Below are positions 1 to 12,509 of a DNA stretch of 12,509 nt, in pieces. Location of the stretch: contig MGSU01000095.1 in NCBI GenBank assembly GCA_001799195.1, positions 1 through 12,509 on the forward strand. The letters run 5' to 3'. The first letter of the stretch is position 1, and every line of letters starts with the position of its first letter. This DNA comes from Deltaproteobacteria bacterium RIFOXYA12_FULL_61_11 (GTDB taxonomy: Bacteria; Bdellovibrionota_F; JAHFAK01; YA12-FULL-61-11). The translations under genes and the position numbers were made by a program. A model generated the notes under the pieces. The model was given only the letters and a program-made list of their open reading frames with translations. It made no database searches and was not told the origin of the DNA.

Positions 1-65
1 TCGCGTTGAGCTACCCAACCATCGGCTTCGTTTTGATGAAGGATGGAAATGGTACAGAAGAACAT
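1..65 (-). CDS. Cassette 2 gene, N-terminal fragment, unknown product
   Basis: On the - strand an ATG at 65-63 opens a frame that stays open to the window edge and encodes 21 residues starting MFFCTISILHQ. It lies 7 bases after AGAAGG, which is the end of the attC crossover core and resembles a Shine-Dalgarno sequence. This copies the arrangement at the start of cassette 1. The polarity fits an array reading away from intI. A competing reading exists: the + strand frame from base 3 is also open and ends at a TAA (78-80) inside the attC, encoding a C-terminus ending HTEAF. The fragment is too short to assign a function. Confidence 0.5.
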   Translation of the reverse strand, partial: MFFCTISILHQNEADGWVAQR

Positions 66-74
66 ACCGAGGCC

Positions 75-135
75 TTCTAACGCCACCGGTCAGCGGCGCG
101 AGCGTGCGAGCGTCCGCTGGAGTGGTATGTTAGAA
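75..135 (-). other. attC recombination site closing cassette 1
   Basis: This 61-base imperfect palindrome starts with TTCTAAC (75-81) and ends with GTTAGAA (129-135), which match the attC outer boxes apart from the first purine. The inner arms CAGCGG (91-96) and CCGCTG (114-119) are complementary, and CCAC (83-86) pairs with GTGG (122-125) around unpaired bases. The spacer between the inner arms is GC-rich. The length falls in the known attC range. The two halves differ by a few unpaired bases, as expected for a site folded as a single strand by an integron integrase. I assign the - orientation from the position of intI; the palindrome alone does not settle it. Confidence 0.88.
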
Positions 136-375
136 CTGCAACGTGTTGGTACGGTAGGGCAAAAGCCACCGAACTCACCTGTGAGATAACACCAGGATTA
201 CTGATAGCACAATGGTTAGTGGAAGACAAGCGAGGTACAACGATGAGCCATTTGTGCGTGCACCGGTCTCAGTCAACGGGTACCCCACAGATTATTTTAG
301 CCTCCGGCAGGACGTAGTTCTCGTAAGTATATCGAGTACGAGGATCTGAAGATGTGTTGAATAGATTGCATTATT
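136..375. other. Non-coding tail of cassette 1
   Basis: These 240 bases lie between the stop codon of the cassette 1 gene and its attC. All three - strand frames are interrupted and only very short reading frames remain. On the + strand a 45-codon frame runs from an ATG at 212 to a TGA at 347-349, but it has no Shine-Dalgarno sequence and could easily occur by chance. I see no internal attC that would divide the cassette in two. The stretch may be spacer, contain an antisense or small RNA, or be the remains of a decayed gene. Confidence 0.5.
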
Positions 376-819
376 TCAGTCGACGAATTGTGAGTTGAGT
401 ATAAAAAGACAGTATTCGTTTCGCGCAGTCGTGAACTGAGCTTGAGCTGATGCAACCGCCTTTGCGTTACCTGTACCAGCTTTGAGTTTGAGTTGCTCGT
501 TGTCAAAACGAGATTGCATCAACAGGGCACGTAAGCGCAGCAGCGTCCCTTTGGTTATTTTTACAGAATTGGGGTAAGGAATTCCAAATCCTTCCGTATT
601 TGCAAGAAGATCATTTATTGTCTTGTGTTGTTTCAGCACAATCCAGAAGTTGTTTTCTAGCCAATTCAATGATTTCATGGCAGACTTCTCAGTGAGGGCA
701 GTTTCTGGTATTTGTAAATCAGATGCTTCACTTGCAGAGTGTGTTCGGTCTGCACACAATGACTGTGCCAGTGCAGGGAATGCAAGGACAAACAAGAAGG
801 CAATGATGATCTTTAGCAT
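376..819 (-). CDS. Cassette 1 gene: small exported protein of unknown function
   Basis: The gene encodes 147 residues. The N-terminus is a clear signal peptide: MLK, then a hydrophobic stretch IIIAFLFVLAFPALA, with probable cleavage after ALA at residue 19. The mature part of about 128 residues is largely predicted helical, has an Ala/Gln-rich segment near the C-terminus and contains two cysteines (residue 22 and one about ten residues from the end) that could form a disulfide. I recognise no family. The ATG at 819-817 is preceded by GAAGGGG at good spacing; this Shine-Dalgarno sequence is part of the cassette's own crossover end. It is the first cassette after attI, the position usually best expressed from the integron promoter. 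Base composition is more AT-rich than the neighbouring chromosomal genes. Confidence 0.8.
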   Translation of the reverse strand: MLKIIIAFLFVLAFPALAQSLCADRTHSASEASDLQIPETALTEKSAMKSLNWLENNFWIVLKQHKTINDLLANTEGFGIPYPNSVKITKGTLLRLRALLMQSRFDNEQLKLKAGTGNAKAVASAQAQFTTARNEYCLFILNSQFVD

Positions 820-831
820 TGAATTGACCCC

Positions 832-900
832 TTCTAACTACAATTAGTCCACATCTTCAATCTGCACCACTTTTCACATAAGCGGTCAGGGGAGTCAAGC
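832..900 (-). other. attI region with crossover core
   Basis: On the - strand the core GTTAGAA lies at 838-832, identical to the core of the attC at 81-75. It marks the junction between the integron platform and cassette 1. Bases from about 839 to 900 should hold the integrase-binding part of attI, but attI sequences are not conserved between integrons, so the right boundary given here is only an estimate from the usual attI size. A TTGACT on the - strand (898-893) resembles a -35 box for the cassette promoter, but I found no convincing -10 partner at normal spacing. Confidence 0.6.
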
Positions 901-1000
901 GGAGAGGTGGTGGAGAAGGGGTTGGGGAAAGATAACAAGCTGAAAGAAAAAGCACAACAAGACGATTTCAGCACGGGTGGGGGAGGGGGGATTTCTGCGC

Positions 1001-1029
1001 TTGCCAAGTTGCTTAGGTTGACCTAAATT
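1001..1029 (+). promoter_or_regulatory. Predicted intI promoter, possibly giving a leaderless transcript
   Basis: TTGCCA at 1001-1006 matches five of six bases of the sigma-70 -35 consensus. Exactly 17 bases later TAAATT at 1024-1029 matches four of six of the -10 consensus. Transcription would start near 1036, next to the ATG at 1037, so the mRNA would have almost no leader. This is a reading by eye; the -10 is weak. Confidence 0.45.
1013..1026. promoter_or_regulatory. Palindromic candidate operator over the intI promoter
   Basis: TTAGGTTGACCTAA consists of perfect 6-base arms (TTAGGT and ACCTAA) around TG. It fills the second half of the promoter spacer and overlaps the first bases of the predicted -10 box, where a repressor would block RNA polymerase. 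Integron integrase promoters in other bacteria carry LexA boxes at this place, and LexA sites differ between phyla. Identification as a LexA site here is inference only. Confidence 0.4.
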
Positions 1030-1036
1030 GGGCGGG

Positions 1037-2029
1037 ATGGATACGCCTCAGAATACCAGCAACGCTCCTCCGAAACCGAAGCTGCTCGATCAGCTCAGGG
1101 CGGCGATACGGGCTCGGCATTACAGCCTTCGCACCGAGGGGGTGTACGTCGACTGGGCGCGGCGGTACATCTTCTTCCACGGCAAGCGCCATCCGAAGGA
1201 GCTGGGGTCCGAGGAGGTGGCGGCGTTCCTCAACTACTTGGCCGGTGAGCGGCACGTCGCGGCCTCGACACAGAATCAGGCTCGGGCTGCTTTGGTGTTT
1301 TTGTACCGGCAGGTGTTGGGTATAGACCTGCCCTGGCTCGACGAGGTGGTGCAGGCGCGGCGGCCGGAACGGCTGCCGGTGGTGTTGAGCAAGAGCGAGG
1401 TGCGACTGCTACTCGACCAGCTCAGCGGGTCCATGGGGCTGATCTGCGGTTTGCTCTACGGGACCGGCCTACGCTTGATGGAGGGGGTGCGGCTGCGGGT
1501 CAAAGACCTCGACTTCGACCAGCGGCAGGTGCTGGTGCGGCAGGGCAAGGGCGGCAAGGACCGGGTCTCGGTGTTGCCCGAGAGCCTGATCCCGGGCTTG
1601 CAGCAGCAGCTCGAGAAGGTGAAGAAGGTGCACGAGGCCGATATTGCGGCGGGTTTTGGCGAGGTTTTCCTGCCGGACGCGCTGGCAGGGAAGTACAAGG
1701 CCGCGGCTCGGAACTGGGGCTGGCAGTATGTTTTTCCCTCGCCGCAGCGCTCGATCGACCCGCGCAGCGGCAAGGAGCGGCGGCACCATGTGTTGCCAGA
1801 GAGCGTGCAACGGGCGGTGCGCGAGGCGGCGAGGGCAGCGGAGCTGACGAAGCACGTCACCCCGCACGTGCTCCGGCACAGCTTTGCCACGCACCTCTTG
1901 CAGGCAGGGAAGGATATCCGCACCGTGCAGGAGCTGCTCGGCCACCGCGACGTGAAGACCACCATGATCTACACCCACGTACTCGGTCCGGGCCGCCTCG
2001 GGGTCGAGAGTCCGCTCGATCAGCTCTGA
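1037..2029 (+). CDS. intI: Integron integrase (tyrosine recombinase IntI)
   Basis: This 330-residue tyrosine recombinase catalyses site-specific exchange between attI and folded single-stranded attC sites, and so inserts and shuffles gene cassettes. The N-terminal SAM-like DNA-binding domain contains the integrase-typical [13 protein letters not shown]. The catalytic residues are all present: Arg146 (GTGLRLMEG), the beta-hairpin Lys171 (GKGGKDR), His277 and Arg280 ([12 protein letters not shown]), His303 (LLGH) and nucleophile Tyr312 (MIYTHV). These numbers equal those I recall for class 1 IntI1. The extra segment unique to integron integrases lies around residues 200-250, including LPDALAGKY and [12 protein letters not shown] prefer the ATG at 1037; a TTG at 1028 would add three residues but overlaps the predicted -10 box. 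No frameshift or missing residue is seen, so it should be active. It points away from the cassettes, the normal arrangement. Confidence 0.95.
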
Positions 2030-2069
2030 GCGGGAAGGGAACGTTCAAGGCAGCAAACCCAACCTCGTA

Positions 2070-2098
2070 TTTCCACCCATGCCCGGGCGTGCTATCAT
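2070..2098 (+). promoter_or_regulatory. Predicted eutBC promoter
   Basis: TTTCCA (2070-2075) and TATCAT (2093-2098) are separated by 17 bases and each resembles the sigma-70 consensus (four and five of six bases). The predicted start near 2105 leaves a leader of about 23 bases before the eutB start. The 98-base gap behind intI holds no terminator that I can see and is too short for a cobalamin riboswitch. Confidence 0.45.
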
Positions 2099-2127
2099 CG
2101 CCTCGAGTGTTCGTCGGAGGAGGAGCG

Positions 2128-3489
2128 GTGCGGCTCGGTGTCACCCTGAGGGGGAAGACCTATCGGTTCATCGAGGTCAAAGAGGTCCTCGCCAAGGCCA
2201 ACGCGCCGCGTTCCGGGGACTACCTCGCCGGGGTCGCCGCGGGCGATGCGGCCGAACGGGTCGCCGCCAGGGCCGTCCTGGCCGGCCTGACTCTCGGTGA
2301 ACTGCGCGAACACCCGGTCGTGCCCTACGAACGGGACGCGCTGACCCGCCTCTGCGAGGACAGCCTCGACGAGCGCGCCTTTCGCACCGTGGCCCATCTC
2401 TCGGTAGGACAATTCCGCGAGTGGATCCTCGACGATGCCACCACCCCCGAACAGCTCCGCGCGGTCGCGCCCGGGCTCCTCCCCGAGATGGCCGCGGCGG
2501 TCTGTAAGCTCATGTCCAACCTCGACCTCATGGTCGCCGGCCGCAAGTGCGAGGTGGTGGTGAGGGCCAACAGCACCCTCGGGTTGCCCCGGCGCTTGTC
2601 CTCGCGGCTCCAGCCCAACCATCCGGCCGATGAACTTGTCGGGATCCTCTGCAGCACCCGCGAAGGTTTATCGTACGGCTGCGGCGACGCGGTGATCGGC
2701 GTCAACCCGGCCACGGACAGCGTGGCCTCGACCGTGGAGATTCTCAAGGCCCTCGACGATCTGTTGCGCCGCAATCGGATACCGACCCAGCACTGCGTGC
2801 TCTCGCACGTGACCGTGCAGATGCAGGCGCTCGAGCAGGGCTGTCCCATGGACCTCGTGTTCCAGTCCCTCGCCGGTACCGAGCAGGCCAATAAGGCCTT
2901 CGGCGTGAGCATCCCCCTGCTCGACGAAGCCCTGGCCATGGTGCGGGAGCGGGGCACTGCCCGGGGTCCCAACCGGATGTATTTCGAAACCGGGCAAGGT
3001 ACGGGTTTCTCCTGCGGCGCACACCATGGCGCCGACCAGGTTACCCTGGAGGCGAGGTGCTACGGGCTGGCCCGGCGCTACGAACCCTTCCTGGTCAACA
3101 CCGTGGTAGGCTTCATCGGGCCGGAGTACCTGGAGGACGGTGCTCAGATCACGAGGGCCGGGCTCGAGGACCACTTCATGGGCAAGCTGCTCGGGCTGCC
3201 CATGGGCTGTGACGCTTGTTATACGTACCACTCGAGTATGTCGCAGGACGAGCTCGAGGCGTTGGAGGTCCTGCTCGCCTCGGCAGGCTGCTGCTACCTG
3301 ATGTCCTTGCCGCTCGGCGACGACGTCATGCTCAACTACCAGTCGACCTCGTTCCACGAGGTGTCTGCGCTGCGTCGGCTCCTCGGTTGCCGGCCCACCC
3401 CGGAGTTCGAGGCCTGGGCGGCGGAGCTGGGCATCCTCGAGCACGGTCTGCCCGGTCCCCGTTTCGCCGACCCCGAGGTGGTGCGATGA
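2128..3489 (+). CDS. eutB: Ethanolamine ammonia-lyase large subunit
   Basis: EutB forms the TIM-barrel core of the adenosylcobalamin-dependent enzyme that converts ethanolamine to acetaldehyde and ammonia. I choose the GTG at 2128, just after GGAGGAGGAG (2116-2125). It gives 453 residues, the length of the E. coli protein, and the N-terminus then aligns (ending in EVKEVLAKAN). The reported active-site residues fall at the expected numbers: Arg160 and Gln162 (SRLQPN), Asn193 (IGVNPAT), Glu287 (YFETGQG) and Asp362 (MGCDACYT). The conserved NTVVGFIGPEYL and AGLEDHFMGKL segments are present. The frame is open back to 2089, but that extension has no counterpart in the family. The stop overlaps the eutC start by ATGA, so the subunits are translationally coupled. 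The reactivating factor EutA is not in the window. Confidence 0.97.
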   Translation: MRLGVTLRGKTYRFIEVKEVLAKANAPRSGDYLAGVAAGDAAERVAARAVLAGLTLGELREHPVVPYERDALTRLCEDSLDERAFRTVAHLSVGQFREWILDDATTPEQLRAVAPGLLPEMAAAVCKLMSNLDLMVAGRKCEVVVRANSTLGLPRRLSSRLQPNHPADELVGILCSTREGLSYGCGDAVIGVNPATDSVASTVEILKALDDLLRRNRIPTQHCVLSHVTVQMQALEQGCPMDLVFQSLAGTEQANKAFGVSIPLLDEALAMVRERGTARGPNRMYFETGQGTGFSCGAHHGADQVTLEARCYGLARRYEPFLVNTVVGFIGPEYLEDGAQITRAGLEDHFMGKLLGLPMGCDACYTYHSSMSQDELEALEVLLASAGCCYLMSLPLGDDVMLNYQSTSFHEVSALRRLLGCRPTPEFEAWAAELGILEHGLPGPRFADPEVVR

Positions 3490-4403
3490 GCAGCACCCGC
3501 GACTTGATGGCCGGCCTGCGCAGGAGGATGGGGGAAGACCGGCCGCTCTCTGCTCCCCGGCCCATGACCTCTCCGGTACAGCTCCCCGTACGGCGGTACT
3601 CGCCCGAGGGCGGCTCTAACTCCTTCGCGCGCGAGGCCTCCCAGCACACCACCGCGGTCCTGGGCATCGGGCACGTCGGAGGACGATATGCCACGGACGT
3701 GGTCCTGCAATTCCAGGCCGAGCTGGCCGTGGCGCACCAGGCCGTCGCGGCTGAGCTGCCGGAAGGCTGGGCCGAGGAGCACGGCTACCTGCCGCTCAAG
3801 TCCCTGGTCTCGGCGCACCGCGAGTTCCTGCTCCGCCCCGAGCTCGGTCGACGGCTCGACCAACCCAGTCTGGAGTTGCTCCGAGCAACGGCGGAGAAGA
3901 ACGTCGACGTGCAGCTCATTCTCGCCGACGGTCTCTCGGCCTCGGCCTGCATGGCCTCGGGACCTGCGCTGCTCGCCATGCTCGGCGACACCTGCCGTGC
4001 AAGAGGTTGGAAGGTCGGTACCCCCTGCTGTGTTCGCTATGCAAGGGTCTGGTTAGAGGACGAGCTCGGTCAAGAGGTCGGGGCAAGGGTCGCGGTTATC
4101 GTGCTGGGTGAGCGACCCGGCTTGGGCACGGGCGACGGTCTCTCGGCGTACCTCGTCCATGGCCCCGAGGTCGGGAAGACCGACGGCGACCGCAACATGC
4201 TCTCGAACCTCCATGCCCGCGGTACCCCGGTCGAGGTAGCGGTGCCGCGGCTCTGCGCCTTGATCGCCGCCATGCTCGAACAGGGGACCTCGGGGGTCGG
4301 CTTGGACCTCTCGCGACTCCCTGCCGAGCTTGGCGCCGTGGAAGATCGCAGCTATCGCCCACCGCAACGGCGGCAACGTCTGGTGGAGCAAGAAGAACCA
4401 TGA
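3486..4403 (+). CDS. eutC: Ethanolamine ammonia-lyase small subunit
   Basis: EutC (305 residues, about ten more than in E. coli) pairs with EutB and contributes to cobalamin binding at the subunit interface. Family blocks are clear: DVQLILADGLS around 141-151, WKVGTPCCVRYARV around 175-188, LGERPGLGTGDGLSAY around 207-222 and NMLSNLHARGTP near 237-248. The first 15 or so residues (MSSTRDLMAGLRRRM) could form a short amphipathic helix. In enteric EutC a comparable N-terminal segment targets the enzyme to the microcompartment, so targeting here is possible but inferred. A charged C-terminal tail of about 30 residues after MLEQGTSG exceeds the enteric protein. The segment GHVGGRY and following FQAELA differ from the E. 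coli stretch with ADHS. The start overlaps the eutB stop (ATGA). Confidence 0.95.
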   Translation: MSSTRDLMAGLRRRMGEDRPLSAPRPMTSPVQLPVRRYSPEGGSNSFAREASQHTTAVLGIGHVGGRYATDVVLQFQAELAVAHQAVAAELPEGWAEEHGYLPLKSLVSAHREFLLRPELGRRLDQPSLELLRATAEKNVDVQLILADGLSASACMASGPALLAMLGDTCRARGWKVGTPCCVRYARVWLEDELGQEVGARVAVIVLGERPGLGTGDGLSAYLVHGPEVGKTDGDRNMLSNLHARGTPVEVAVPRLCALIAAMLEQGTSGVGLDLSRLPAELGAVEDRSYRPPQRRQRLVEQEEP

Positions 4404-4415
4404 AGGCCTAGGGAT

Positions 4416-5627
4416 TCAGCGAGGAGCAGTTCCGGCGCGGGTTCGCCCGATCTTCTCGACGGTGCCGTTCGGCCGCCTGAGGGTCAAGGTACCATCGTCC
4501 TCGACCAGGACATAGCCGAGCCGAGTGAGCGTATTGCCGTACCCCTGACTCAGGCCGAGGTCATCGTGCACGATCAGGACATCCTCCTCGGAGAAGGCAT
4601 CGGTCGGGCCTATCCAATTCCCAAGCGGGAGCACCTTCTGCGTATGCACGCGATCGTGTCCGCGCAGGATCGTGTGTACTCCGGTCTCTGAGAAGAAGCG
4701 CTTGGCGGTTTCGCTGGTATCAAGGGCGTGATCGCTGCGCTCGGCATCGTCCGAAGCCCAGGTCAGTTCATCGACGAGCGCGCGTTGGTCCGCGGGTTGA
4801 GCACATTTCATCGTCGCATCCTTCTCGGGACTCGAGGTCTTCTCGTCACAACAGGAAAGGTAGTCTTGCCAGGACCTGTTGAGCCGGTCGAGTTCGGCGG
4901 CAAACCCCTGAGGGGTGGGTTTCCCTCCCATGGCCTTGCGCAACTGGGCGATCGCGGAGGCAGTGAAGCCGCCGTGCACATAGAGGGTCCCGTTGGAGAC
5001 CTGAGCGATTGTGGATTGGGAAAAAACCTTAAAGGGGTTGAGAGATTTCCCGCTCTTGCTCGCGAGGTTGCGATAGCGGTTCAAGAGCATGGTGCGCACG
5101 GTTGCAAGATTGCTGGCGCCGTAGGCTTCGAAGTTCTTGTACTTGTCGAACACCCTGATATCTTCGAGGAAGGAGCGGAGGTTCGGTTCGAACGAACAGG
5201 TCTCGGCCAATTCGTCGATGCCCGGACCGGCGCCGTTATCATGGTGGATCGGGCGCTCGGGGTCGGTGTCGTCGTGGATGACGCCGAGCCAATTGGCTAC
5301 TTGCTGTTCGTCCCCGCACAACCCGGCGAGCGCCATGACATCGTGATTGCCTGCCACCATATGTACGTGGCCGGGGTTGTTTTCTGCCATACCGTCCACG
5401 GTCTCGAGCAGGGGGTGGAGCTTGTCGTACCGGTCGAAGAGGTCTCCGGTTAAGACCAGCTCATCGCTTGCAGGGTGCCAAGGACCGACGGGGGAACGAT
5501 CGGGAGTTTGCAGCTCGTGCAGGATCGCCCTGAGGACTTCTCCGTCCCCGTGGAGATCGCCGATGACCAGGGTCCGGGCAGTCGAAACAAAGGGGAGCAA
5601 CAAGCTCGCGAGGAGGAACCAGTACAT
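4416..5627 (-). CDS. Exported calcineurin-like metallophosphatase
   Basis: The 403-residue protein has the metallophosphatase motifs in order: GDLHGD (23-28), GDLFDR (61-66), GNHD (93-96), the single His in YVHGGF (His218) and GHDRVH (323-328). Together they supply a two-metal centre for phosphoester hydrolysis. Spacing and the late GHxxxH resemble bacterial Shewanella-like protein phosphatases, but the substrate cannot be read from sequence. MYWFLLASLLLPFVSTA is a probable signal peptide, so it should act outside the cytoplasm. I choose the ATG at 5627, preceded by GGAGAAG at 5 bases; an upstream ATG (5657) would add ten charged residues before the signal. The gene lies antisense between eutC and eutL, ending 12 bases from eutC without room for a separate terminator. 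Confidence 0.88.
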   Translation of the reverse strand: MYWFLLASLLLPFVSTARTLVIGDLHGDGEVLRAILHELQTPDRSPVGPWHPASDELVLTGDLFDRYDKLHPLLETVDGMAENNPGHVHMVAGNHDVMALAGLCGDEQQVANWLGVIHDDTDPERPIHHDNGAGPGIDELAETCSFEPNLRSFLEDIRVFDKYKNFEAYGASNLATVRTMLLNRYRNLASKSGKSLNPFKVFSQSTIAQVSNGTLYVHGGFTASAIAQLRKAMGGKPTPQGFAAELDRLNRSWQDYLSCCDEKTSSPEKDATMKCAQPADQRALVDELTWASDDAERSDHALDTSETAKRFFSETGVHTILRGHDRVHTQKVLPLGNWIGPTDAFSEEDVLIVHDDLGLSQGYGNTLTRLGYVLVEDDGTLTLRRPNGTVEKIGRTRAGTAPR

Positions 5628-5872
5628 GCTGCTTCTCCGTTCGACCTGACGGACCATGCCGGGAATAGCAAAAGATGAGCCATGATTCTTGGACCGGCGG
5701 GTTGTAGAGTGCTTTGAATAGTAATGAGAAACATCAAGACAGGTGGCTGCTCCTTGGCGTCCTGTTCGGGCTGGTGATCACTCCCCTGACACGATCGAGG
5801 AGCGTGTCCGCCGGCGTGACACTTTTCCCTGTCCCGGGGGGGGCTTCCTCCAAGCTCATGCCGGCAGGTAAA

Positions 5873-5916
5873 ACCTCGTTGCGGCGAGGTCGTCCGAAGA
5901 CCTTGAGCTCCAAGGT
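5873..5916 (+). promoter_or_regulatory. Pair of short inverted repeats upstream of eutL
   Basis: ACCTCG and CGAGGT flank a six-base loop (5873-5890). Ten bases later ACCTTG and CAAGGT flank AGCTC (5900-5916). The second repeat overlaps the predicted -35 box of eutL and is close to a full palindrome, so it could be a protein-binding operator. Both could also be chance in GC-rich DNA. Confidence 0.3.
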
Positions 5917-5932
5917 AGGCCTAGTGTATGGT
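5903..5932 (+). promoter_or_regulatory. Predicted eutL promoter
   Basis: TTGAGC (5903-5908) and TATGGT (5927-5932) are separated by 18 bases and each matches four of six consensus bases. The position, 27 bases before the eutL start, resembles that of the predicted eutB promoter. It is weak by consensus. Confidence 0.3.
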
Positions 5933-5959
5933 GAACTTGCTCCTACTGGGGAGAGAACC

Positions 5960-6613
5960 ATGATCCTTGAGCCCATTCCCCCGATTGTGCTCTCGGTGCG
6001 GCGGTTGCCGGGCGCGCACCCTTCCGTGTTGAGGGCCTACGGGGCGGATCCCACGCGTCACACCTCGCTCGGGCTCGTCACCTGCGATCAGGATGACAGC
6101 ACCTACGTCGCCCTGGACGAGGCCACCAAGCATGCCGCCGTGGACGTGGTCTTCGCCCGCTCGTTCTATGCCGGAGCGGCACACGCCTCGGGCCGGCTCA
6201 GCGGCGAGATCCTCGGAGTCCTGGCCGCCGAGGATCCGGCCGAAGTCGATGCAGGCCTGGAGGCCTTGCTCACCTGTCTCGAACACGACGCATGCTTCTA
6301 TCGCGCGGACGAGCGCGGCGCGATCGCAGTATTCCCCCACGTCATTGCCTCGCTCGGGCAGTATCTCTCGGCGCAAGCCGGGTTGGCCCCCGGCGACGCC
6401 ATGGCCTATCTCGTCGCCCCGCCGCTCGAAGCCACAATCGCCTTGGATGCCGCCCTGAAGGCTGCCGAGGTTCGCGTGGTCAAGATTTTTCCCCCGCCGA
6501 CCGAGACCAACTACGCCGCCGCCTGGCTCACCGGAGCCCAGGTCGATTGTGAGGCCGCTGCTCTGGCTTACGCCGAGACCGTGGTCGAGGTTGGGAGGAA
6601 GCCGCATTGCTAA
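5960..6613 (+). CDS. eutL: Ethanolamine microcompartment shell protein EutL
   Basis: EutL is a tandem bacterial-microcompartment (BMC) domain protein that forms trimeric, hexagon-shaped shell tiles with a gated pore. The ATG at 5960 follows GGGGAGAG and gives 217 residues, against 219 in E. coli. Recognisable stretches are SLGLVTCDQDDSTYVALDEATK (36-57, with the acidic Asp45-Asp46 pair), ARSFYAGAAH (66-75), GDAMAYLVAPPLEAT (145-159) and FPPPTETNYAAAWLTGAQ (177-194). Both BMC repeats appear complete. It is the only shell gene in the window and is separated from eutBC by an antisense gene, although these genes are usually contiguous. Its 3' end overlaps the next gene by seven bases. Confidence 0.95.
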   Translation: MILEPIPPIVLSVRRLPGAHPSVLRAYGADPTRHTSLGLVTCDQDDSTYVALDEATKHAAVDVVFARSFYAGAAHASGRLSGEILGVLAAEDPAEVDAGLEALLTCLEHDACFYRADERGAIAVFPHVIASLGQYLSAQAGLAPGDAMAYLVAPPLEATIALDAALKAAEVRVVKIFPPPTETNYAAAWLTGAQVDCEAAALAYAETVVEVGRKPHC

Positions 6614-7773
6614 CCCGTGGTTCGGTGGAGAACGGCGGGCGCAGGGTGCGGCAGGGGTTCGGAGGTTCCTCGGAGGACCCGAGCGGAAGCGCGCGAGTTC
6701 GCCGCCTGCGAGAGGGCTGGGCCGTTTGGTTGGTGCTGATCCTCCAGACACAGTGTATTCAGCCGGCCATGCATGCCGACTCGGGAACCGAGACCCCGCT
6801 CGAAACCGTTCCTGCTCGATTGCCGGATGCTCCGTACCAGCCGACGCAAGATCCGAGCATGGGTGCCGGTGCTGCGCTTCCCGGTCCATCTGCCATGGCA
6901 TCCGACACCTCGGAGGATGCGACCGAGGGGGAGACAGAACCCCCCGCAGAACCCGCTGGTCCGGCCTACCTCCACGCAGACCTGTGGTTGCGCTGGGCCA
7001 ATGGGCGCACCAGGTGCGGGGCCCTGGCCAAGTTCTGGTGGATGTGCCGGCAGATGGGGTGTGCCGAGGCCGCGGCCTACGAGAACGCGTACCGGGCCTG
7101 CGATCCGAAGGCCATTGTTGACGGCCAGGTCGGGCCGGAAAAGCAGGGTGCCGAGGATACCTGTGGCAGGGGGCCGTACGGGACCTGCGATGTCCGTGCG
7201 ACCTTCGGCGATCCGCCGGACTTTTATCCGGCTCACTTCTACTGGGAGGGGTGCACCTGGAACGGTGGTTGGGCGGGCGCGGCTCTCCTGGTGTTCGACC
7301 CGCCCTTGGGGTCGCTCGGAGAAGCCGAACAACGCGGTTTGTCCAGCGCTCGGATCATCAAGACCAGCGCGCCGGGGGAGGATGACTACCATGGCCTCGA
7401 GAACAAGGGCCTGGGTTGCGTCATGGTGAATAAACAGCCCGGTGACGACAAGAACGAGGTCTACACCCAGCCGTGGGGTGGTTTCGCATGGATCCCCCTC
7501 GAGCCGGGTAGGGAGGTTTCGGTGCTCGCGTGTGCCGGGAGCGGTTGCGGCGGACCGCTGTTCAATCCGAGCGGTCGGCAGGAGAATCTCGATCCCCCGG
7601 TCCCCTTGCTCACGCTCCACACCGTCACGCCCGAAGCTGGCAAGCATTACTTCATCGGGCTGCACCGGGACGGAGAGGTGCAGCCCCTCGCCGCTCCCGC
7701 GCCTCCTGAGGCCCTCTGTCAGGGGTTCGCTCTGACGGGGACCGATATTGGCGACGGTGCCTCTTGCAGGTGA
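6607..7773 (+). CDS. Unknown exported cysteine-rich protein coupled to eutL
   Basis: This 388-residue protein matches no family that I know. The start is a TTG at 6607, six bases after GGGAGGAA (6593-6600) and overlapping the eutL stop, which implies translational coupling; a GTG at 6646 is the alternative. A basic region is followed by the hydrophobic segment WAVWLVLIL (39-47) and Cys50, a poor lipobox because Gln precedes it, so type I export or anchoring is more likely. Residues of about 58-115 form a Pro/Thr/Glu/Ala-rich linker. The remaining domain has twelve cysteines, enough for six disulfides, and many Trp and Gly residues (for example YWEGCTWNGGWAG), suggesting a disulfide-stabilised extracytoplasmic fold. 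Nothing in it indicates a role in ethanolamine metabolism, despite its position. Confidence 0.8.
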   Translation: MLTRGSVENGGRRVRQGFGGSSEDPSGSARVRRLREGWAVWLVLILQTQCIQPAMHADSGTETPLETVPARLPDAPYQPTQDPSMGAGAALPGPSAMASDTSEDATEGETEPPAEPAGPAYLHADLWLRWANGRTRCGALAKFWWMCRQMGCAEAAAYENAYRACDPKAIVDGQVGPEKQGAEDTCGRGPYGTCDVRATFGDPPDFYPAHFYWEGCTWNGGWAGAALLVFDPPLGSLGEAEQRGLSSARIIKTSAPGEDDYHGLENKGLGCVMVNKQPGDDKNEVYTQPWGGFAWIPLEPGREVSVLACAGSGCGGPLFNPSGRQENLDPPVPLLTLHTVTPEAGKHYFIGLHRDGEVQPLAAPAPPEALCQGFALTGTDIGDGASCR

Positions 7774-7810
7774 GTTGAGGCTTCTGGACCGGTCCGAGAC
7801 CCTGCCAAGC

Positions 7811-7845
7811 CCACCTCGGAGGTTGTGCTACGACGAGCGAGGTGG
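7811..7845 (+). terminator. Candidate hairpin downstream of the eutL transcript
   Basis: CCACCTCG (7811-7818) and CGAGGTGG (7838-7845) are perfect 8-base complements with a 19-base loop, 37 bases after the stop codon at 7773. No U-rich tract follows, so a factor-independent terminator is not well supported. It could protect the 3' end or be chance. Confidence 0.3.
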
Positions 7846-7973
7846 TCTCGATACCTTCCCGAGGGACGATTCGAAGTGCACACGGTGCGACCCGTAGAGG
7901 GCATAATTGAATAATTCTTGAAAAATGTCGCACAGGAAATTTAATAAATCAAAACATAATCAATAAGTAGTAA

Positions 7974-7982
7974 TGGTATAAT
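7974..7982 (+). promoter_or_regulatory. Extended -10 promoter in an AT-rich island
   Basis: TGGTATAAT combines a perfect -10 box (7977-7982) with the TGn extension. The upstream 7908-7976 stretch is strikingly AT-rich in this GC-rich context and could act as an UP-like element; no good -35 box is present, as is usual for extended -10 promoters. It precedes the gene at 8033 by 50 bases. A 6-base inverted repeat (TGGAAT 7994-7999, ATTCCA 8012-8017) lies in the predicted leader. Confidence 0.6.
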
Positions 7983-8032
7983 ATTTGAATTCGTGGAATG
8001 CTGTATACGCAATTCCAGGTTTGGAGGATGCC

Positions 8033-8578
8033 ATGAGAACCGCTCTGTTGCTCTTCGTGCTGGGGTTTTCCATGCTCGTCACGGTTGAGGCGAAGGATGA
8101 AAACCTCGTTGGGTATTTCCAAGAACGCTGCAGAGACGAGATGAAGCAAGACAGGGTGGTGAAGAAAGCGGACGTCGAGTGCGATCCGGACGAGGGTGAA
8201 GGCTCGCACGTCGACCTCGTCAGTGCGGGGAGCGACGACCCGACGCTGCTCGCGGTCTGCGATGATCCGACCCCTCGCGGGGCTCGCATGCTCCGCTGTA
8301 TCCGCGAGTTCCGCAGGGGGTTCGAGAACCAAGCCACCGAGGACGAGGGTACTCTCGTGACGCTGGCCTCGGCCGAGGGGGCGTTCGCATTGTGTTCCAT
8401 GGCGGAGAAAGAAGGGGAACTCGATGGCGCCGAGAGCTATCTGAATCCCGTCACCCATTGGGGACGGTTCTCTTCCTGCGTGAAGAGTGCCCAGGCCGAG
8501 CGGACCTGGAATTGCACCTATCACCCCAACGCACCTGGGAGGTGTCATCTGCGCGCCGATGTAAGCAGCTGCTTGTGA
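8033..8578 (+). CDS. Small exported cysteine-rich protein of unknown function
   Basis: The 181-residue product begins with a classic signal peptide, MRTALLLFVLGFSMLVTVEA, with probable cleavage after VEA at residue 20. The mature part is acidic and has nine cysteines, so one may be unpaired or join an intermolecular disulfide. I recognise no family. The ATG at 8033 follows TTGGAGG at good spacing; the frame is open further upstream to 7985, but that extension would precede the signal peptide and lacks a ribosome-binding site. It seems to be transcribed alone from the extended -10 promoter at 7974-7982. Confidence 0.8.
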   Translation: MRTALLLFVLGFSMLVTVEAKDENLVGYFQERCRDEMKQDRVVKKADVECDPDEGEGSHVDLVSAGSDDPTLLAVCDDPTPRGARMLRCIREFRRGFENQATEDEGTLVTLASAEGAFALCSMAEKEGELDGAESYLNPVTHWGRFSSCVKSAQAERTWNCTYHPNAPGRCHLRADVSSCL

Positions 8579-8633
8579 AGACCTCCGCTCCTGTTCAGTC
8601 TGTGGAAAAGCTCGTTTCCGGGACGTTGTCCGA

Positions 8634-8671
8634 GGTTCGGTGAGCTGGGGACCCCTTTGAGTTCCCGAACC
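8634..8671 (+). terminator. Candidate hairpin after the small exported protein gene
   Basis: GGTTCGG (8634-8640) and CCGAACC (8665-8671) are complementary over seven bases, and the enclosed part contains GGGGACCCC (8647-8655), which can form a second stem. It lies 55 bases after the stop at 8578 and before the next promoter. No T-run follows, so termination is uncertain. Confidence 0.3.
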
Positions 8672-8685
8672 CTAGAGGATCGGGG

Positions 8686-8714
8686 TTGTCGGCTCTGAGC
8701 CTTCTCGTTATGAT
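8686..8714 (+). promoter_or_regulatory. Predicted promoter of the EGF/RCC1 lipoprotein gene
   Basis: TTGTCG (8686-8691) and TATGAT (8709-8714) match four and five of six sigma-70 consensus bases, with the ideal 17-base spacing. The predicted transcript start near 8721 gives a leader of about 33 bases. Confidence 0.55.
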
Positions 8715-8753
8715 GCGTAGCCTCTCCCATGTCCCGACAGACCGAGGTGACGC

Positions 8754-11279
8754 ATGTGCCGGAACACTCCACGAACGTTTTTGTCCCTCCCTCTGGTCGT
8801 GGTCACCTGCTCTGCCGTGTTCTTCGCCCTCGGGTGCGACCAGCTCCGCGACGCGCTATCCGGCGGTGGTTTTATCGCGGACGAGGTCTGCGCCAAGCTT
8901 GACCGTTGCGCCGACGAGTACCAACATGAGCACGAGGCCGAGGAGGATTACGACGACATACACTGGGAGGACTGTACCAAAGACCTCTCCCGCGCCAACG
9001 AGTTGATGAAACCCGAGGTGAGCGACACCTTCGGTTCCTGCATCCTCGATAGCTCGTGTCAGGAGTTGGGCCGCATGGCCCACGTGACCTGCCTCATGAA
9101 GGTGGTGGGGATGGGCGGCAGTGGCGGACGGTCGACCCTCCTCAAGCACTACTGTAAGCGCAAGGAAGAGTGCGACGACGCTTCGTACACCACGGAAGAG
9201 TGCGAACGTTCCAGCGCGGGCCAGCTCGGCAACGCGAGCATGCTCCTCGGCATGTTTAAGACCTCCGCGGCCGATTGTTTCCATGCCTGCCTGCGCAAGG
9301 CCGACTGTCGCAAGCTCGACGAGTTCTACGCCTTGTGCGGCACACATTGCCGCTTCTTCGGCCTGGACGAAGATGACAGCGAGGAGCTGTGCAACGACCA
9401 CGGCAGGTATGCCGACGGGAAATGCGCCTGTGAGGAAGGCTATCTCGGCGATTGGTGCGACGAGTGCCCGCCCGGCCAGCACCTCGACGACCGGTATTGC
9501 TACGAAGATTGCACCGAGGCGACCTGCGGGGGGCACGGCACCTGTTATTTCGACCATGGCCCGCCTCGCTGTGCCTGTCTCCAAGGGTACGAGGGCTACC
9601 GTTGCGAGAGCTGCTCCACGGGGCTGTCCGAGGTCGACGGCGCCTGTATCGACGTGTGCGCCGAGGTGGACTGCCATCACGGGCATTGTACGGTCCAGCA
9701 GCTCGGCACGCATCAGCACACCGCCCACTGCATCTGCGACCGAGGCTACTTCGGAGAGACCTGTGAGGTCTGCTGGGATGATCATTACCTCGAGCTGGGA
9801 GAGTGCCTACCTCACTGCAAAGAGGATAGTTGTTCCGGGCACGGCACCTGTGAAGGTTACAGCGGTGCACCGGTCTGCACCTGCGAGGAGGGCTATGCCG
9901 GCGAGACGTGTTCGGCCTGCGCGGTCGCCTATGAGCGGGATGTGAGCGGCGATTGTGTCGGCGTGTGCGAGCCCGATAGCTGCTCGGGTAGAGGGACGTG
10001 CGACGGTTCGAGCGGCGAGCCGGTGTGTACCTGCGAGGAAGGGTACGGCGGACCTGTCTGCGGCGCGTGTGCGGGGGCCTTCGTCGAGCGCGAGGGTATT
10101 TGTATCCTGCCGGTCCAGAGCGTAGCCTTCGGCGGCTATCATGTTTGCGCTGTCTTCGTCGACGGCCGGGCCCGTTGCTGGGGAAGTGATGCAAAAATGC
10201 TCGGGTACGGAGCCGAAGTGACGACGAGTAGCACGGACGAGCTGGCTTTCCTCGGTGAGGACAACCCCATCGCCCAGATCTCGGCCGGAACCTTCCATAC
10301 GTGCTTCCGGTACCGCGATGATCAGGTCAAGTGCGTCGGGTTGCCCGACGAGGGTCGGCTCGGCAGCAAGGCCAGAGAATATTTGGGTATACGCGAACCC
10401 TTGGCGCAGGTGCCGGCGGTTCGGCATGGCGGGAACGGTCTTGTGGCCCTCGCCTCGGGCAGCGCCTTCACCTGCGTGCAAACCGACAACGGGGAGCTGC
10501 GCTGTTGGGGTATCAATCATTTCAAGTGGTTGCTCCCGGTGGCCGGGGATGCCATCGGCGACGACGAATATCCCGAGGACGTCGGGCCGATACCGCTCTG
10601 TGGTCCCGTCTCCCAGTTCGAGCTGTACGACCGTCACGGCTGTGCAGTGCTCGAGGACGACACCCTGCAGTGCTGGGGCATTTCCACCGGGTGGTTCCCG
10701 ACGGTGCTCCCGGGAGCTTGTACCTGGCCGCGCCTGGACTTCGGAGAACCCCTGGCCGAGGTTGTGGTTGGAGGCAGTCACGCCTGTGCCCGCTTCGACG
10801 ATGGCTCGGTGACCTGCTGGGGCGACGGTTCGCAGGGACAGCTCGGTTATGGGGACACGGTGAGCATCGGTCACCAGCACGACCTCGCCCCCTTACCCGC
10901 CGAAGGCGCTCCCCGGGTGGACCTGGGGAATGCGGCCGTGCAGCTCAGTGCAGGGGGGAGTCACACCTGCGCCCTGTTGGAAGGAGGAGAGGTGCTATGT
11001 TGGGGGGCCAACGAGTCCGCCCAACTCGGCTGTGGGCACACCGACAGGATCGGCGACAACGAGGTCCCGGCCGATTCATGTCTCGTACCCCTGCCCGGGA
11101 AGGCCCTTCGCGTTGCGGCCTGGGGCGGACACACCTGCGCCGTGCTCGAAGAGGGCGACCTGTATTGCTGGGGGGAGCATCCCAGCACGAATCTGTGGTA
11201 CGGGGACGCGATCTACAATCAGGACGTGCCCTTGGTCTTCGAGCCCGGTGAGCTCCGGCGGGTCGAGTTGTTCCGCTGA
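8754..11279 (+). CDS. Lipoprotein with five EGF-like modules and an RCC1-type propeller
   Basis: This 841-residue surface or periplasmic protein starts with a signal peptide ending in the lipobox ALGC, so Cys28 should be lipidated. A cysteine-rich, probably helical region (about 29-212) follows. Five EGF-like modules lie at 213-439, each with the pattern C-x-GHGTC...CxCxxGYxGxxCxxC. Residues 454-841 contain seven RCC1-like repeats of about 55 residues, with variants of GGSHTCAL...GxVxCWG, enough for a complete seven-bladed propeller. The paired cysteines of each repeat could cross-link the blades. EGF-like modules 4 and 5 are nearly alike and suggest a recent duplication. The ATG at 8754 follows GAGGTGA. 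Such proteins are common in myxobacteria and relatives and are usually thought to bind ligands or partners; no enzymatic motif is visible. Confidence 0.88.
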   Translation: MCRNTPRTFLSLPLVVVTCSAVFFALGCDQLRDALSGGGFIADEVCAKLDRCADEYQHEHEAEEDYDDIHWEDCTKDLSRANELMKPEVSDTFGSCILDSSCQELGRMAHVTCLMKVVGMGGSGGRSTLLKHYCKRKEECDDASYTTEECERSSAGQLGNASMLLGMFKTSAADCFHACLRKADCRKLDEFYALCGTHCRFFGLDEDDSEELCNDHGRYADGKCACEEGYLGDWCDECPPGQHLDDRYCYEDCTEATCGGHGTCYFDHGPPRCACLQGYEGYRCESCSTGLSEVDGACIDVCAEVDCHHGHCTVQQLGTHQHTAHCICDRGYFGETCEVCWDDHYLELGECLPHCKEDSCSGHGTCEGYSGAPVCTCEEGYAGETCSACAVAYERDVSGDCVGVCEPDSCSGRGTCDGSSGEPVCTCEEGYGGPVCGACAGAFVEREGICILPVQSVAFGGYHVCAVFVDGRARCWGSDAKMLGYGAEVTTSSTDELAFLGEDNPIAQISAGTFHTCFRYRDDQVKCVGLPDEGRLGSKAREYLGIREPLAQVPAVRHGGNGLVALASGSAFTCVQTDNGELRCWGINHFKWLLPVAGDAIGDDEYPEDVGPIPLCGPVSQFELYDRHGCAVLEDDTLQCWGISTGWFPTVLPGACTWPRLDFGEPLAEVVVGGSHACARFDDGSVTCWGDGSQGQLGYGDTVSIGHQHDLAPLPAEGAPRVDLGNAAVQLSAGGSHTCALLEGGEVLCWGANESAQLGCGHTDRIGDNEVPADSCLVPLPGKALRVAAWGGHTCAVLEEGDLYCWGEHPSTNLWYGDAIYNQDVPLVFEPGELRRVELFR

Positions 11280-11302
11280 AATCTGGTGGGGGCCGGGAGA
11301 AT

Positions 11303-12509
11303 TCAGAGCCCGCGTTCGGCCAGGAAGGCCTTTTTGTCCGGTTCGCGGCCGAGCAGCTCCAGCATCAACGTGTTCGGATCCACGGAGCCGCCCGGCGCGA
11401 AGAGCAGGGCGCGCAGGCGTTGGCCCGCAACCGGGTCGAGCAACCCTTGGGCGCGCATTGCGGCGAAGAGGTCGGCCGCGAGGACCTCGGCCCAGAGGTA
11501 CGCGTAGTACCCGGCGTCGTATTCCATGAGGTGACCGAAGCCTGCCTCGGGGGAGGTCCCCTCCACGTAGATCGCGCCCGGGAATTCTGCCGACAGATCG
11601 CGCCACATGGCCGAGGTGTCCGCGGGCGGTTCGCCGAGGTGCAGACGCAGGTCGTACGTCGCGTAGAAGAGCTGGGCGAGCGTGGCGAGGCCGGGCAGGA
11701 AACGGGGTTCCTCTTCCATGTAGACCAGGTACTCTTCGGGGAGCGGCTTGTTGGTCTGGTAGTGTCGGGCGAAGCGGCTCACGATTGCGCGGTCCCGCGG
11801 CCAACGTTCCAGGAGCTGGGACGGAGTCTCGACGAAGTCGTGCTTGACCGAGGTGCCGCTCTGCTGGAAGTAGCGGGTTTCGCTGAGCAGCTCGTGCATG
11901 AGGTGGCCGAATTCGTGGAACAAGGTCTCTATCTCGTAGGGAGTCAGGAGCGAGGGCTCGCTGGGGGTCGGTTTGGTGAAGTTGCAGACGATCGCGGCTT
12001 CGGGCAATTGGACCGTCCCATCGGAGAAGACCTTGTGGCCCTTGAGCGAGAATTCCGCGGCATGCGTGTATTTGTTGGGTCGGGGGAACAGGTCGAGCAG
12101 GAAGGTGCCGATCTTTTGTTCGCCGTCGAAGACTTCGAAGGTCCGGACATCGGGATGGTAGCTCAGGCGCTGGACTTCGCGGAAGGTGACCGAGAAGAGG
12201 GTCTGGTAGACGCCGAAGAGGCCGTTCTCGAGGACCGCCTGCAGCGGGAAGTACTCGGAGAACTTGGCCAAGTCGATATGGAAGTGTTGTTCTCTCATTA
12301 CATTGGAATAGAATTCGTGGTCCCAGGGAAATAGGTCGACCGAAGGGTCTTTCAAGGCGTCGCGCTTGAGCTGGCGTAGAGAGGCCAACTCCTCCTGACC
12401 CCGGGGGAGAAAGGCCGCATGCATGCCTTCTAGGAATTCCAAGACCCGCCCCGGAGTTTTGGCCATACGTGGGATCAGACGGACTTCGGCGTGGTTGGCG
12501 TAGCCGAGG
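11303..12509 (-). CDS. M3-family zinc oligopeptidase, C-terminal part
   Basis: The protein is a cytoplasmic-type thimet/oligopeptidase A-like metallopeptidase that cleaves short peptides. The zinc motif HEFGH is encoded at 11917-11903. The third ligand is the Glu of DFVETPSQLLE, 29 residues after the first His, the spacing seen in thimet oligopeptidase. The C-terminal YDAGYYAYLWAEVLAADLF and FAPGGSVDPNTL stretches are typical of the family. The reading frame continues through an internal ATG at 12466 to the window edge; the residues before it (LGYANHAEVRLIPR) match the family, so the true start lies outside. About 400 of roughly 680 expected residues are visible. No signal peptide can be judged. 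It converges on the EGF/RCC1 gene with 23 bases between the stops. Confidence 0.95.
   Translation of the reverse strand, partial: LGYANHAEVRLIPRMAKTPGRVLEFLEGMHAAFLPRGQEELASLRQLKRDALKDPSVDLFPWDHEFYSNVMREQHFHIDLAKFSEYFPLQAVLENGLFGVYQTLFSVTFREVQRLSYHPDVRTFEVFDGEQKIGTFLLDLFPRPNKYTHAAEFSLKGHKVFSDGTVQLPEAAIVCNFTKPTPSEPSLLTPYEIETLFHEFGHLMHELLSETRYFQQSGTSVKHDFVETPSQLLERWPRDRAIVSRFARHYQTNKPLPEEYLVYMEEEPRFLPGLATLAQLFYATYDLRLHLGEPPADTSAMWRDLSAEFPGAIYVEGTSPEAGFGHLMEYDAGYYAYLWAEVLAADLFAAMRAQGLLDPVAGQRLRALLFAPGGSVDPNTLMLELLGREPDKKAFLAERGL

Follow-up and report, generated by a model that had tools for sequence, protein, structure and literature searches.

A complete sedentary integron with one intact integrase, and attI copies without intI, in a barely sampled bacterial phylum

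The integron locus and its host

The window, by which we mean the whole 12,509-bp stretch of DNA analysed here (positions 1-12509), covers the first half of contig C95 (23,871 bp) in a metagenome-derived assembly of 4.64 Mb and 342 contigs that is 87% complete with an estimated contamination of 1.23%. Its features are as follows.

1-80, minus strand: initial (5') part of a gene-less cassette that recurs in the genome, truncated where the contig begins (alignment with the copies on contigs C124 and C196)
75-135, minus strand: attC of cassette 1, with R'' TTCTAAC and R' GTTAGAA (covariance model and single-stranded DNA fold)
81-837, minus strand: gene cassette 1, its limits being the crossover points of attI and attC as seen in the sequence
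376-819, minus strand: ORF of cassette 1, 147 aa, signal-peptide-like start, no known family
832-952, minus strand: attI, crossover between 838 and 837; the block occurs at three genomic places
1001-1029, plus strand: putative intI promoter TTGCCA-17-TAAATT (consensus scan only, 1 match versus 1.1 expected)
1013-1026, no strand assigned: palindrome TTAGGTTGACCTAA, in the spacer and -10 of the putative intI promoter
1037-2029, plus strand: intI, integron integrase of 330 aa (TIGR02249)
2089-3489, plus strand: eutB (PF06751, 650.6 bits), flanking chromosomal gene
3216-4403, plus strand: ORF with eutC, the match covering residues 140-363 (PF05985, 207 bits), flanking
5714-6613, plus strand: EutL-like microcompartment shell gene (TIGR04502, 275.8 bits against a cut-off of 300; PRK15405, 267.7 bits against a cut-off of 198), flanking

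We found that positions 1-2029 hold a complete, ordinary sedentary chromosomal integron, comprising an integrase with its catalytic residues and IntI-specific region, an attI that adjoins intI and has its junction at G^TTRRRY, a cassette ended by an attC that folds from the bottom strand, and a multi-cassette array represented by attC sites on contigs C124 and C196, which are presumed to be physically linked to C95. The integrase matches TIGR02249 over profile positions 1-315 of 315 (455.7 bits, cut-off 265) and its alignment with the VchIntI structure (2a3v) runs from the N-terminal domain through the whole catalytic part to the C-terminus; in this alignment the catalytic R, K, HxxR, H and Y are conserved, part of them within MIYTHV, and the IntI-specific stretch is present. 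It is the only full-length integron integrase in the genome, other TIGR02249 matches lying on other contigs and well under the cut-off, and shares 55% identity with class 1 IntI1. When placed in a phylogeny, as the first-pass annotation had proposed, it is sister to a Holophagaceae (Acidobacteriota) IntI (support 99/94), and the two are nested in a clade of betaproteobacterial-type IntIs, a grouping that suggests horizontal acquisition of the integron.

The attI crossover, GTTAGAA, occupies positions 838-832 of the minus strand, and conservation among the three copies of the attI block stops there. The attC at 75-135 folds as bottom-strand DNA at -16.5 kcal/mol (z -3.1), is further backed by compensatory pair changes, and scores 65.1 bits (E 2.4e-15) with a held-out covariance model trained on seven other sites, without the window's attC, its subtype or near-identical copies. 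This model found nothing better than E 1.2 on 20 other host contigs and, when applied to integrons of other bacteria, picks out attC sites on the strand where they are expected. The first-pass annotation had described an intact IntI with all catalytic residues, an attI core, one full cassette and a good attC at 75-135, and had named folding in an attC covariance model as the check for the last; each of these descriptions holds. Its statement that both visible cassettes lack a recognisable function stands for cassette 1, whose ORF has no match in Pfam or NCBIfam, and needs revision for the second, which is no gene of unknown function but the 5' start of a recurrent gene-less cassette. This cassette is about 265 bp long, contains short ORFs only, and recurs at C124 141-408 and at C196 4387-4650 and 6166-6427, along with further partial copies. 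A sigma-70 consensus scan, which may not represent the host's own promoters, found no site reading into the array as a cassette promoter (Pc) would.

Within the genome collection searched, the host's class and phylum each contain two genomes and its family the host alone; with so few genomes in class and phylum, the host is a member of a barely sampled phylum and not a gammaproteobacterium, as the first-pass annotation had thought probable. That annotation also placed ethanolamine genes beside the integron, and eutB, eutC and the EutL-type shell gene do lie downstream of intI. eutBC are separated from the EutL-like gene by a gene (4416-5657, opposite strand) for a calcineurin-like phosphoesterase, and a secreted-looking protein of 841 aa with EGF-like and RCC1 repeats is encoded at 8754-11279. 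G+C content is 47% over positions 1-1030 versus 64% over the remainder of the window, and more generally 47-49% in the arrays versus 60-65% in most flanks. An Rfam scan gave no known RNA above the gathering score in the window; the sole match was outside it, a tRNA on contig C74.

The integron resembles the betaproteobacterial-type sedentary integrons of Comamonadaceae, Rhodocyclales and Nevskiaceae in its IntI (up to 72% identity), an intI oriented away from the array, attC hairpins on the strand opposite intI, cassettes of low G+C content, and a palindrome with a CGGATG start context at the intI promoter. It differs from them in a host phylum with two genomes in the collection searched, in an attI without detectable similarity to theirs, and in two extra orphan attI sites. 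Neither the window's attI and attC nor the attI of contig C53 showed similarity at E 0.01 to the DNA of 80 relatives, and a search of viral contigs for related arrays with three patterns returned no matches.

Array continuation and attI copies without intI

The first-pass annotation had proposed a search for further attC sites, and these are present on four other contigs: with covariance model R1, whose training includes the window site, we found one attC on C95, eight on C124, four on C196 and one each on C99 and C74 (the last two in neither model's training), plus one weak match on C220. The array most likely leaves C95 leftwards into C124, judging from sequence, because both contigs break inside the gene-less cassette, which makes them probable neighbours; no overlap between the two was found. 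The cassettes of C124 (L022:1-4661) carry HicA/HicB toxin-antitoxin pairs and an AAA ATPase, with a methyltransferase after the last attC, and they end against chromosomal genes, a content that fits sedentary integrons. The AAA ATPase is weakly similar to the defence proteins PtuA, AriA and mad3. On C74 (L124:1814-2330), a lone attC with the 3' part of the gene-less cassette has a tRNA gene on one side and the type I restriction gene HsdR (REase_I, 934 bits) on the other. Tetranucleotide profiles of the C95, C124, C74 and C99 flanks agree with the host.

The attI block occurs exactly three times in the genome, on C95, at C196:4273-4396 (82% identity) and at C53:10014-10133 (78%), with the next matches at chance level. 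An intI gene stands beside the C95 copy only; no intI remnant was found near the C196 or C53 copies, and C196 has no TIGR02249 match. On C196, the attI has a cassette array of its own, which runs up to a transposase gene at its distal end. The C53 attI adjoins a pair of overlapping genes without a known family (L023:10137-11917), which are inserted exactly at the crossover and flanked by IS-like repeats and feoB; neither the covariance models nor a generic scan detected an attC on C53. An attC-like stretch in a C53 gene at about position 10,645 was rejected, as it lies inside a coding frame and is unsupported by any model or generic scan.

The C95 and C196 attI copies are 91.5% alike over their last 85 nt, and the adjoining 60 nt on the intI side, which lie ahead of the palindrome, show only the similarity of shuffled sequence. 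The cassettes that these sites bound are closer still: window positions 1-151 and C196:5024-5174 are 97% identical, and cassette and attC blocks shared between the arrays are 96-97% identical, compared to 82% for the attI copies. Cassettes more alike than their platforms are what exchange in trans would give, the alternative being copying of repeated cassettes. These near-identical blocks, together with the intact parts, lead us to infer that the integron is active.

The same pattern recurs outside the host. In a Nevskiaceae genome (L030) with contigs above 100 kb, the intI upstream region has a second copy, 70% identical, on another contig (L161:1501-1638). This orphan attI follows acpS; beyond it come two ORFs, each with an attC-like hairpin after it, the first hairpin (z -3.7) having canonical R boxes and the second a z of -3.3. 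No intI match was found there. The same test on a Holophagaceae genome gave no second attI. Orphan attI sites are thus present in two of the three genomes examined, a small sample in which the two positive genomes are unrelated.

A conserved palindrome at the intI promoter

Allowing one mismatch, TTAGGTTGACCTAA occurs at two places in the whole host genome, both beside attI (C95 and C196), with 60 and 61 bp separating it from the attI block. In the matching part of the alignment, the C53 copy shows another inverted repeat. Beyond the host, the block TTTAGGnnnnCCTAAAAT...CGGATG lies on the intI promoter of the window integron and of at least 16 relatives. The motif TAGGCAAACCTA, with up to two mismatches, was found upstream of intI in 16 of 75 relatives, compared to 0.005 expected per region; in these 16 (L025, L026, L029, L030, L032, L033, L035-L040, L042, L043, L045 and L049) it is embedded in the block TTTAGGCAAACCTAAAATTTnnCGGATG, whose end is the intI start codon. 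Two relatives outside this count (L027 and L044) have the same or a variant form of the palindrome, and promoter hexamers related to TTGCCA/TAAATT occur in several relatives' intI upstream regions. The palindrome is also retained at two of the three orphan sites, on C196 and at the Nevskiaceae orphan, both of which have no intI to control.

A LexA box that covers the -10 has been described as widespread among intI promoters (PMC8876359), and the host palindrome overlaps the -10 in the same way. In contrast to LexA-controlled promoters, however, its sequence is TTTAGGnnnnCCTAAA instead of CTGTN8ACAG, a pattern that was found in none of 76 intI upstream regions. For this host we rejected the palindrome as a LexA (SOS) box, since it occurs genome-wide only at the two integron sites and not on the lexA contig (C247), with the caveats that the single lexA found lies among mobile-looking genes and that the genome is incomplete; no LexA box shared with other SOS genes places this intI under SOS control. 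IntI might bind the palindrome, given the likeness of the palindrome's arms (TTTAGGC) to the IntI R box (GTTAGGC). For the large group of chromosomal integrons nearest the window's IntI, the palindrome offers a specific candidate, other than a LexA box, for an element that controls intI or attI. What is new here is this conserved non-LexA palindrome at the intI promoter together with attI platforms that have no intI.

Probable use of the attI copies in trans and its alternatives

IntI enzymes recombine attI as double-stranded DNA with attC as a folded single-stranded hairpin. From the parts and boundaries observed, their conservation, and the near-identical blocks shared between arrays, we propose a course of recombination, contig order and action in trans as follows. 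Cassettes would be inserted by IntI between 838 and 837, the array would continue from C95 into C124 with its distal cassettes and chromosomal flank, and the single IntI would act, or have recently acted, in trans on the satellite attI sites of C196 and C53. We consider it probable that this sedentary integron, with its intact IntI, represents a system in which one integrase has served several docking sites. In favour of such service we count the intact IntI and supported attC, the three attI copies for one full-length integrase, the absence of intI remnants by the orphans, the 91.5% similarity of the last 85 nt of attI next to a stretch at shuffled level, the shared blocks (96-97%) exceeding attI (82%) in identity, tetranucleotide values within the host range, and the Nevskiaceae orphan. 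Against it, we count the fragmented metagenome assembly, the lack of a detectable attC on C53, the lack of a second attI in the Holophagaceae genome, and the repeated gene-less cassettes, which could raise identity between arrays without direct exchange.

The main competing explanation accepts the integron as real and regards the orphan attI sites as dead relics of duplicated integrons that lost intI and fell out of use, as has been proposed for clusters of attC sites lacking an integrase (CALINs) in general. Decay of this kind would account for the palindrome and the start-codon context of a lost intI (CGGATGG) that persist at the C196 and Nevskiaceae orphans, for the lack of a TTG-type -35 hexamer at the expected place in both, and for C53 being without attC; it also agrees with the IntegronFinder 2.0 paper, which describes CALINs as proposed degraded integrons (PMC9024848). 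However, the attI block is still 82-91% alike to the intI-linked copy next to a stretch at random level, and the cassette blocks of C196 and of the intI-linked array resemble each other more closely than do the two attI sites. We regard decay after duplication as a serious but less probable reading, and rank use of the orphans in trans as most likely.

Two further explanations concern the identity of the contigs and of the block. C196 and C53 could come from another organism or strain and have been misbinned, as can happen in a fragmented metagenome assembly, and their flanks have tetranucleotide correlations (0.585 and 0.643) in the lower half of the host range and near the controls from other taxa (0.26-0.57). 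Yet both values are within the host range for pieces of such sizes (low ends 0.44 and 0.41), attC families and gene-less cassettes are shared, the C196 and C53 flanks have paralogous genes in common, and estimated contamination is 1.23%, so we consider misbinning improbable. That the 120-bp block is some other repeat and not attI is conceivable in that there is no general attI model and the assignment comes from position and boundary; but the block sits between intI and the first cassette, its conservation stops at the GTTAG crossover in three different junctions, and its three copies each border inserted cassettes or genes, which makes this explanation very improbable.

Returning to use in trans, C196 bears on how integrase-less arrays are understood. 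With four attC sites found by covariance models and no intI on the contig, it qualifies as a CALIN (at least two attC sites, no intI nearby), but differs from one in retaining an attI at its proximal end. CALINs are roughly as frequent as complete integrons (2961 versus 2760; PMC9024848), and their cassettes can be mobilised in trans according to the literature (PMC12444791, PMC9668308). Orphan attI sites would escape IntegronFinder 2.0 because it does not detect attI outside class 1 (PMC9024848). CALINs are usually read as decayed, and the presence of orphan attI sites in two unrelated genomes suggests that arrays lacking an integrase may retain a docking site and still be used. More speculatively, some bacteria may have a distributed integron in which one IntI serves dispersed attI platforms, most of them with the palindrome serving as an operator or accessory site peculiar to integrons, to which IntI may bind. 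We hold this extension only tentatively; if it is true, many CALINs would be satellite platforms in use and not decayed integrons.

The repeated cassettes without a credible gene recall the gene-less promoter cassettes of Vibrio superintegrons (PMC11014356), but unlike these, the C196 array has no sigma-70-like promoter in a consensus scan, whose consensus may differ from the host's promoter type. A conserved RNA or DNA structure in the extension of about 100 nt upstream of attC was considered and rejected, as none of its four pairs has a compensatory change on both sides. The sequence of this extension (GGTTCACCACC...CCAACAWGTTGCAG; window positions 136-236) is conserved ahead of most attC sites in L021 and L022 and is common to coding and gene-less cassettes.
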